Positions 12,411 through 15,185 of a stretch of 64,000 nucleotides of DNA are shown piece by piece. Both the position numbers and the translations under genes were made by a program. Each line of letters begins with the position of its first letter. Positions within the stretch are counted from its first letter, which is position 1. The notes beneath the pieces are model-generated. The model had not been told where the DNA came from. It saw nothing but the letters and a program-made list of their open reading frames with translations, and made no database searches. This DNA comes from Salipiger thiooxidans. GTDB lineage: Bacteria; Pseudomonadota; Alphaproteobacteria; Rhodobacterales; Rhodobacteraceae. The stretch spans positions 124,001 to 188,000 of the forward strand of contig NZ_FNAV01000009.1 of assembly GCF_900102075.1 (NCBI RefSeq), read 5' to 3'.

Positions 12411-12597
12411 TGCGTTGTAACAAAGGCCCCTCCGGCCCCGTGATGACGTTACGACTGCGCTTTCGCGGTTTTGGAATACCTCATCTTTTCAGCGTCCTGA
12501 TGCCGCGCATCCGATACCCGGGCAGCGACAGGGGATGACACACGCGTGACGCACTTCCCCGTGAATGGCGCGGGCTGCGGACCGGGCGCACCATTCG

Positions 12598-12626: not shown

Positions 12627-12658
12627 ATCCAACGGGACCTTCAACAGGGAAGATGAAG

Positions 12659-12964
12659 ATGTCGAACAAACTGAAAACCGTGGCGCTGCTGGGCGCCGTT
12701 GCAACCGCCGTCACGCTCAGCGCCCAGACCGTGCAGGCGCAGGCCAAGGAGAAGTGCTTCGGCGTGGCGCTGGCCGGCCAGAACGACTGCGCCGCCGGCC
12801 CCGGCACCACCTGCGCGGGCACTGCCAAGGTCGACTACCAGGGCAACGCCTGGAAGCTGGTCGACGCCGGCACCTGCATGGAGATGGAGCTGCCCGCCAT
12901 GGCCGACGGCTCGGCCCGCATGGGCTCGCTCGAGGCGCTGGACCGCGACCTGCCGGCCTCCTGA
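12659..12964 (+). CDS. bufA: DUF2282 bufferin-type RiPP precursor peptide
   Basis: The precursor has 101 residues. A signal peptide ([20 protein letters not shown]...QAQA) is followed by a short mature protein with four cysteines at positions 33, 44, 52 and 73, in the family pattern [42 protein letters not shown]2282 proteins with this spacing are the bufferin precursors (gold-induced GigP-like). In characterised homologues, cysteines are modified by a DUF692 enzyme and the peptide binds copper in the periplasm. The ATG at 12659 is preferred to the one at 12653 because AGGGA is 8 nt away from it but only 2 nt from the earlier ATG. The acidic tail after Cys73 is about 28 residues. Confidence 0.88.
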
Positions 12965-12978
12965 CCGGACGACGCCGA

Positions 12979-13004
12979 CCGGGGCGGCACCCTGCCCGCC
13001 CCGG
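12979..13004 (+). promoter_or_regulatory. Intercistronic hairpin between precursor and modifying-enzyme genes
   Basis: CCGGGGCGG and CCGCCCCGG form a perfect 9-bp GC stem with an 8-nt loop, 14 nt after the precursor stop and before the enzyme's ribosome binding site. With no T run it is more likely a partial terminator or 3' RNA-stability stem than a full stop, which would give more peptide than enzyme. Confidence 0.6.
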
Positions 13005-13030
13005 CACATCCCATGAGGGAGGGACGGGAC

Positions 13031-13879
13031 ATGACCTTCGACACGCTGCCCGCCGCTGCGGGCGTCGGCTACAAGCCGAAGCATTTCAACGACATCCTCG
13101 AGAACCCGGCGCCGGTCGGCTGGCTCGAGATCCACGCCGAGAACTACATGGGCGACGGCGGCCGGCCACTGGCGCAGCTGCGCGCGCTGGCCGAGCGGTT
13201 CCCGATCTCGGTGCATGGCGTGGGGCTGTCGATCGGCGGCGAGGGACGGCTCGACCCCGAGCACCTCGCCCGGCTCCGCCACCTGCTGCGCTGGCTGAAC
13301 CCGGCGAGCTTCTCCGAGCATCTGGCGTGGTCGACCCATGACAGCGCCTTTCTCAACGACCTGCTGCCGCTGCCCTACACCGACGCGACGCTGGCCCGCG
13401 TCTGCGACCACATCGACGAAGTGCAGGAGACGCTCGGTCGGCGGATGCTGCTCGAGAACCCGTCGAGCTATCTCGCCTTTGCCGATAGCACATGGTCCGA
13501 GCCCGACTTCCTGCGCGAGATCGCCCGGCGCACCGGCTGCGGTCTGCTGCTCGACGTGAACAACGTCTTCGTCTCGGCCACCAACCTCGATTTCACACCG
13601 CAGGGCTACATCGACGCCTTCGCGCTCGAAGAGGTGGGCGAGATCCACATCGGCGGCCATGACGAGGACGAGGGCGACCACGGCCACCCCCTGCTCATCG
13701 ACAGCCACGGGCGCGAGGCGGCGGACCCGGTCTGGGACCTGCTCGACCACACGCTGGCCGGTTCGGGGCCGCGCCCGGTGCTGGTGGAATGGGACACCGA
13801 CGTGCCGGACTGGCCGGTGCTCGCCGCCGAAGCGCGACGCGCCTCCGACGCGCTCCTGCAACCGAGGGCCGCGGCATGA
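13031..13879 (+). CDS. bufB: DUF692 multinuclear non-heme iron oxidative enzyme (MNIO), BufB-like
   Basis: The protein has 282 residues with a TIM-barrel fold expected. Family metal-ligand positions are visible: His62 (SVHGVGLSIGG), His97 (FSEHLAW), Glu142 (LENPSSYL), Asp175 and Asn177 (LDVNNVF), His206 and His210 (EIHIGGHDED), Asp224/His226 (IDSHGRE) and Glu253 (VEWDTD). MNIO enzymes oxidise cysteine or other residues of RiPP precursors; MbnB is the prototype. The start at 13031 follows GAGGGAGGGACGGGAC; the ATG at 13013 lacks such a site. The expected substrate is the DUF2282 peptide just upstream, and the expected partner is the DUF2063 protein whose start overlaps this stop as ATGA. Confidence 0.9.
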   Translation: MTFDTLPAAAGVGYKPKHFNDILENPAPVGWLEIHAENYMGDGGRPLAQLRALAERFPISVHGVGLSIGGEGRLDPEHLARLRHLLRWLNPASFSEHLAWSTHDSAFLNDLLPLPYTDATLARVCDHIDEVQETLGRRMLLENPSSYLAFADSTWSEPDFLREIARRTGCGLLLDVNNVFVSATNLDFTPQGYIDAFALEEVGEIHIGGHDEDEGDHGHPLLIDSHGREAADPVWDLLDHTLAGSGPRPVLVEWDTDVPDWPVLAAEARRASDALLQPRAAA

Positions 13880-14613
13880 TCAGCCAGTCCGCCTTCCGCC
13901 ACGCGCTCACTGACGCAGGGCAACCGGTCCCGGAGACGCTTGTCGACGGGGCCGGACGCCCCGCCGGGCGGCGTTTCTCGGTCTACCGCAACAACGTGGC
14001 CGTCTCGCTCTCCGAGGCGCTCGAGACCGGTTTTCCCGCCGTTGCGGCCCTGCTCGGCGCCGCCAACTTCGCCCGCGTCGCGGCGCGTTTCCTGCGCCAG
14101 CACCCGCCGGGCTCGCCGCTGCTGATGACATGGGGCGGGCAGTTCCCGGCCTTTCTCGAAGGGCTCGACGAGCTCGACACCATGCCGTGGCTGCCCGACG
14201 TGGCGCGCAGCGATCTGGCCATGCGCCGCGCCTACCATGCCGCCGACGCCGCCCCCATCGAGCCCGCCGAGCTGCTTGCCCTCGACGAGGAGGCGCTGGA
14301 ACGGGCCCGCGTCACGCTTGCGCCCGCGGTGCAGCTCATCGCCTCGCGCTGGCCGCTGGCCGAGATCCGCAGCTACGCGCTTGGCGAGACGCCCGAGCGA
14401 CCGAGCTCCGGCGCGCAGGACATCGTGGTCACCCGGCCCGAGTTCGATCCGGTGGTCTCGGCCCTACCCGAGCGCGGCCATGCCTTCGCCCTCGCGCTGA
14501 AGGCGGGCATGCCGCTCGGTGCCGCCGTCACCCAATGCGGCGCGGGCTTCGACCCCGCACCCACCCTCGCGCTGCTGCTCGGTCAGGGCGCCATCACGGG
14601 ATTGATCTCATGA
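13876..14613 (+). CDS. bufC: DUF2063 partner protein of the MNIO enzyme, BufC-like
   Basis: The protein has 245 residues. The N-terminal DUF2063 domain covers roughly residues 3-95, with the hallmark RRFSVYRNNVAVSLSEAL. The remainder is a C-terminal region found in this family. Such proteins bind the precursor peptide and present it to the DUF692 enzyme, as MbnC does for MbnB. Its ATG overlaps the bufB stop (ATGA) and its own stop overlaps the next gene's ATG, showing tight translational coupling. It is soluble, with no signal peptide. Confidence 0.87.
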   Translation: MISQSAFRHALTDAGQPVPETLVDGAGRPAGRRFSVYRNNVAVSLSEALETGFPAVAALLGAANFARVAARFLRQHPPGSPLLMTWGGQFPAFLEGLDELDTMPWLPDVARSDLAMRRAYHAADAAPIEPAELLALDEEALERARVTLAPAVQLIASRWPLAEIRSYALGETPERPSSGAQDIVVTRPEFDPVVSALPERGHAFALALKAGMPLGAAVTQCGAGFDPAPTLALLLGQGAITGLIS

Positions 14614-15185
14614 CCCGGTTTTTCATGCTTTACCAGGATACCGCCGACTGGCTCGAGATCCGCACCACGGGGCTGCTGCCCCTGCTCGCCCGGCTCACCT
14701 TTGCAGCAACACTGCTGGTCTATTTCTGGAGTTCCGCCCGCACCAAGCTCGGCGACGGGCTCTTCGGGCTGATCATCCCCTCGGACGGCGCCTATGCACA
14801 GATCTTCCCCCGCCAGCTCGAGGCTGCGGGCTACGACATCTCGCAGCTCGGCATCCTGCACTGGGCGGTGACGGTCGCCGGCACCTGGGCAGAATTCCTG
14901 CTGCCGCTGCTGGTGGTCCTGGGGCTTGCCACCCGACTGGCGGCGCTGGGAATGATCGGCTTCGTCACGGTACAGAGCCTCACCGACCTCTATGGTCACG
15001 GTGCCATCGCCCATGACGAGACCGTGGGCGCGCTCTTCGACCGCATGCCCGACGCCATGATCCTAGATCAGCGGCTGCTCTGGATGTTCCTGATGGTCAC
15101 GCTGGTGCTGAAGGGCGGAGGCTGGTTGGCGCTCGACCGCGGCCTGTCACGGCTCGCGACGCCGCGACAGTCCCCCGCTCTCTGA
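14610..15185 (+). CDS. DoxX-family membrane protein of the bufferin-like cassette
   Basis: The protein has 191 residues. Hydrophobic segments lie at about 20-45, 85-110, 113-135 and 150-170, in the DoxX/DUF417-like four-helix arrangement, with TRLAALGMIGFVTVQSLTDLYGHG between helices 3 and 4. DoxX genes close the gold-induced gigPABT operon of Cupriavidus and many bufferin operons; the molecular role is not known. It overlaps the DUF2063 gene by ATGA and is the last gene of the cassette; the ArsC-like gene beyond runs in the opposite direction. Confidence 0.85.
   Translation: MTRFFMLYQDTADWLEIRTTGLLPLLARLTFAATLLVYFWSSARTKLGDGLFGLIIPSDGAYAQIFPRQLEAAGYDISQLGILHWAVTVAGTWAEFLLPLLVVLGLATRLAALGMIGFVTVQSLTDLYGHGAIAHDETVGALFDRMPDAMILDQRLLWMFLMVTLVLKGGGWLALDRGLSRLATPRQSPAL

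Follow-up and report, generated by a model that had tools for sequence, protein, structure and literature searches.

How is a bufferin operon transcribed when no ECF sigma factor gene lies next to it? Bufferins, peptides that sequester copper, form a large family defined only recently, and in the available excerpts of PMC12452194, PMC13097082, PMC12538549, PMC3511200 and PMC8224329 the SigF/NrsF pair is the sole bufferin control described. The 64,000-nucleotide stretch of Salipiger thiooxidans DNA analyzed here (the window) carries a bufferin-type cassette whose trigger the first-pass annotation had found not obvious, since it saw no ECF regulator alongside; this absence goes together with a conserved promoter element that had been overlooked. 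We think it likely that this is a Buf1 operon whose promoter is bound by an unlinked regulator, most probably an activator, in place of a linked SigF/NrsF pair.

The operon and its products

The four-gene cassette originally read from the sequence (DUF2282, DUF692, DUF2063 and DoxX) was recovered as follows, with the anticipated ATGA overlaps at bufB/bufC and bufC/doxX evident from the coordinates:

12659 to 12964, forward strand: bufA, bufferin (Buf1/DUF2282) precursor of 101 aa (ORF, Pfam, alignment)
12965 to 13030, forward strand: bufA-bufB gap, holding a G+C-rich hairpin (predicted fold)
13031 to 13879, forward strand: bufB, MNIO bufferin maturase (Pfam, NCBIfam, 3BWW alignment)
13876 to 14613, forward strand: bufC, DUF2063 partner protein (Pfam, NCBIfam)
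14610 to 15185, forward strand: doxX, DoxX-family membrane protein (Pfam)

Pfam searches matched the first three products, ordered bufABC by their coordinates, to DUF2282 (E=9.4e-25), MbnB_TglH_ChrH (E=5.3e-102) and DUF2063 (PF09836, E=2.7e-24), and the fourth to DoxX with 24.3 bits (cut-off 23.6). BufB reached 366.5 bits with the NCBIfam model MNIO_BufB (NF050167), an equivalog model for 'MNIO family bufferin maturase' with a curated cut-off of 310. Because BufB clears this cut-off, we assign the cluster to the Buf1 type, and by this model the DUF692 enzyme sits with the bufferin maturases, as had been proposed. Judged by its sequence, then, the operon is a Buf1 bufferin cluster, a kind already known; both MNIO and bufA have a single match in the genome.

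The Buf1 operon of Caulobacter vibrioides (CC3254-3257 / CCNA_03363-03366), to which we liken it by gene content, consists of these four gene families in an identical order (PMC3511200, in part). HvfABC / EGKCG oxazolin-captophorin clusters likewise pair an MNIO with a DUF2063 partner; however, BufB and BufC of Salipiger scored 225 and 51 bits with the HvfB and HvfC models, below their cut-offs of 360 and 142, and BufA, unlike those clusters, has no EGKCG repeats. The DUF2282-DUF692-DUF2063-DoxX layout is also that of gig operons, such as those of Cupriavidus metallidurans and Legionella. According to an excerpt of PMC12452194, gig operons are bufferin clusters.

A DUF2282 match together with four cysteines conserved in aligned relatives (Cys33, Cys44, Cys52 and Cys73) bears out the four-cysteine precursor. 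An alternative in-frame ATG at 12653 is possible for bufA; most aligned relatives begin at the position of 12659. By eye, the BufA N-terminus has a positive start, a hydrophobic stretch and VQA before QAKEKC, which we read as a putative Sec signal. The 28-residue acidic tail noticed earlier does follow Cys73 (six acidic and two basic residues, net -4), but it is not peculiar to this copy: among 60 BufA proteins including that of the window, the motif G[SA][LMP]...RDLP, in a slightly relaxed pattern, occurs in 42 of 45 from the same family and in 1 of 15 from other families, and a Sinorhizobium meliloti copy also carries it. Since 42/45 family relatives share the motif, and Gly89, Leu91 and Pro99 are invariant in a 39-row alignment, the tail is a conserved part of the bufferins of this lineage, perhaps a recognition or stability element. 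An AlphaFold model of BufA built from 39 sequences had a mean pLDDT of 45.7 and was set aside.

In phmmer searches BufB matched 3BWW (E=1e-44), MbnB and a DUF692 protein with three PDB entries (8HCI, 8HI7 and 8HI8), which we take to be TglH. The His/Asp/Glu positions expected of the enzyme hold in alignment, where His62, His97, Glu142, Asp175, Asn177, His206, His210, Asp224, His226, Glu253 and Asp255 are identical to 3BWW; they are presumably metal (iron) ligands or catalytic residues. BufC had no PDB relative by phmmer at E≤1. The G+C-rich hairpin in the bufA-bufB gap was foldable in 21 element-bearing loci with a foldable gap, with z of -2 or lower in 12 of them (range +0.3 to -5.7, against mononucleotide shuffles), and perhaps sets the peptide-to-enzyme ratio.

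By analogy with characterized bufferins, BufA would be made in the cytoplasm, where BufB with BufC would oxidize the central Cys44 and Cys52 to thiooxazoles while Cys33 and Cys73 would pair as a disulphide; the exported peptide would then chelate excess copper in the periplasm. Periplasmic copper buffering, known from Caulobacter, is on this analogy the best-supported role of the Salipiger operon.

A palindromic element before bufA

Upstream of bufA, two further features were mapped:

12536 to 12568, forward strand: 33-bp palindromic promoter element TSACRNNNNCGTGANNNACGNNNNYGTGANTGG, a putative regulator-binding site, ending in a -35-like TGG
12589 to 12594, forward strand: predicted -10-like CACCAT, 20 bp after the element

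The element is a near-perfect palindrome centered on its 15th base, with 10 of the 33 columns invariant; the copy in the window differs by one mismatch from the first 29 bases of the pattern. In 20 of 22 loci, all but L060 and L079, a YAnnnT hexamer begins 20 or 21 bp downstream of the element; no other offset between 8 and 39 has it in more than one of the 22. It is this fixed distance that puts TGG at the expected place of a -35, with the palindrome directly upstream.

A scan of genome_contigs (84,980 species) returned 49 exact matches to the pattern; 44 of these precede a bufA start by 103-140 bp. thrS was recognized in 41 of these 44; the three others (L190, L192 and L208) have bufA and the element without thrS in the available 0.7-1.8 kb upstream, and for this reason the element belongs to bufA rather than to thrS. 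In another match (L178) the stretch ends 0.2 kb past the element, with thrS upstream, and two (L181 and L182) lack bufA. A Rhodobacteraceae MAG (L189) keeps thrS and the element, with the bufA start fused to the doxX end and bufB and bufC gone; this is a decaying copy of a bufferin locus.

Several records stood out on their own. Good element, thrS and operon lie together on a 1.19-Mb plasmid record of Tritonibacter mobilis. S. bermudensis HTCC2601, a laboratory Salipiger strain, carries the element at its locus L165. Enemella evansiae is an actinobacterium, yet the record bearing that title (JAFKDC010000002.1, L184) has a thrS-buf locus resembling those of Rhodobacterales, which makes the title look mistaken. 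In Novispirillum itersonii (L177, 2370-2402) an exact element lies 65 bp before a DUF1223-like gene, named so by eye, rather than before bufA, and is followed 20 bp later by CAGACT. DUF1223 was rejected as a second target: the 450 bp before each of 30 DUF1223 matches contained no element, the best score being 2.2 where known elements reach at least 22.6, and our literature search found no paper treating DUF1223 and copper together.

In the Salipiger genome itself, the pattern gave a total of 59 matches, counted strand-wise, and a reversed control gave 15. The bufA site was the only one with at most one mismatch; one site had two mismatches and many had three. Across 61 genomes, the element model R1 yielded 13 hits at E≤0.003, every one at bufA, which points to one target per genome. 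Eleven weaker hits were inspected (L147-L153 and L155-L158), one of them (L157) before bufA and the other ten inside open frames. In a scan of 385 genomes of the class, run with strict filters and at most 18 candidates scored per genome, hits reaching E≤0.003 were confined to two genomes of the same family, G000 and G391. A single target is unusual for a global metal regulator and counts against our proposal.

Mutual exclusion of the element and linked sigma genes

The Caulobacter SigF promoter reads GTAACC-N16-CGAA in an excerpt of PMC3511200, and the bufferin operons of this bacterium are described as SigF-dependent (PMC3511200 and PMC8224329, both in part) and copper-induced (PMC8224329). 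Caulobacter vibrioides has sigF adjoining its operon and this promoter, whereas the Salipiger operon has neither and bears the palindromic element instead. Blastp of the 11.3-kb locus (L047) found no bufferin-type ECF or NrsF gene, which agrees with the earlier remark on the missing regulator, and a GTAAC-N16-CGAA promoter is likewise absent at the operon.

A bufA match was present in 61 of 101 genomes, and 60 loci were compared, 25 with thrS upstream and 35 without. Among the latter, 22 showed GTAAC-N16/17-CG[AT]A no more than 300 bp from bufA, and in 20 of the 22 a sigma gene was adjacent, 18 of them having NrsF as well. The remaining 13 had neither a SigF-type promoter, a sigma gene nor NrsF. 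SigF/NrsF linkage is optional for Buf1, not defining. Of the thrS-linked loci, 22 of 25, that of the window included, carried the element in an ungapped scan and lacked a sigma gene; at one of these, L050, a SigF-like match is present as well, at -208. The other three comprise L063 (G026), with a 1-nt indel in the element before the first of tandem bufA genes, L078 (G029), with sigma gene, NrsF and SigF promoter but no element, and L058 (G048), with neither system. Element and linked sigma gene thus never occurred together at the 60 loci (23 and 21 carriers, respectively), a zero overlap with a hypergeometric chance of 1.6e-6 that is only indicative because the loci are related. As a separate observation, a Paracoccus liaowanqingii plasmid locus (L245) has sigma and DUF1109/NrsF-type genes after doxX and a thioredoxin-family gene, all in the same direction.

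A tree of 59 BufB proteins grouped the 23 element-bearing rows with L058, L075, L078 and L085 in one clade (support 99/94), with sigma-linked rows also on deeper branches; six long branches were flagged, none of them element rows. Each label (element, sigma) requires two changes on this tree, and L078, the exception, has its sigma factor closest (60%) to the deeper group. The simplest reading of the tree is that control by SigF was ancestral and was replaced once by the element. Within Salipiger (G000-G019), the cassette is thrS-linked in 7 of 20 genomes, sigma-linked elsewhere in 10 and missing in 3. In all 13 genomes without a thrS-linked cassette, the end of the thrS match lies about 0.06-0.11 kb (in G016, 0.76 kb) from the match to an arsC-like gene, and csp and LysR genes lie farther on; this thrS/arsC-like junction is an empty site.

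The candidate regulator and rival readings

Two candidates were rejected. The neighboring LysR gene is not favored as the dedicated regulator because all 13 of the 13 Salipiger genomes with neither the thrS-linked cassette nor a strong element hit retain it. An unlinked SigF is likewise disfavored: the genome has no NrsF at E≤0.001, and the best of its 15 loci with Sigma70_r4_2 hits, three clear ECF genes among them, reached E=7e-4 against two bufferin-linked sigma factors.

We picture a -35 preceded by the conserved 29-bp palindrome, which an unlinked regulator, most likely an activator, would bind in response to metal as the presumed signal, a linked SigF/NrsF pair not being the driver. Alternatively, the palindrome could be an operator for a repressor or belong to a constitutive promoter, but this seems unlikely. 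Repressors often use palindromic sites, and location by itself does not reveal whether a site activates or represses; this one, however, is situated before the -35-like TGG and not across the -10, and a weak -35 with a spacer of ~18-19 bp better fits activation. Less probable still is that the operon mainly serves against gold, cadmium, chromate or oxidative/sulphur stress and not copper. Excerpts of the literature describe SigF regulons as responsive to Cr and Cd (PMC3511200, PMC8224329), gig operons as responsive not only to Cu but also to Au and Ag (PMC8224329), and a DoxX homologue as protective against oxidative or sulphur stress (PMC12452194); however, the same sources describe copper chelation by Caulobacter bufferin 1 (PMC12452194) and a severe growth defect upon sigF loss in Cu, unlike in Cr and Cd (PMC8224329). 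An RNA leader (attenuator or riboswitch-like) in a long bufA 5' UTR is very improbable, for although the distance to the ATG in the 44 exact matches leaves room for one and a hairpin is foldable between element and start codon in the single sequence of the window, the element is conserved as fixed letters in an invariant layout and is followed at fixed distance by a -10-like hexamer.

Returning to the proposed activator-bound promoter, we advance only tentatively the broader idea that one large clade of marine Rhodobacterales has exchanged an ECF sigma factor for a dedicated regulator of bufferin expression with essentially one target per genome, acting at a 29-bp double palindrome directly upstream of the bufA -35. 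Our literature search, which covered only part of the published papers, found no report on Rhodobacterales bufferin promoters or on the palindromic element. If the idea is correct, copper (or metal) would here be sensed by a circuit of a new type. The element could serve as DNA bait for isolating a second regulator of bufferins from marine bacteria. Together, the element and SigF loci provide a clean natural swap of regulation in an otherwise unchanged operon.
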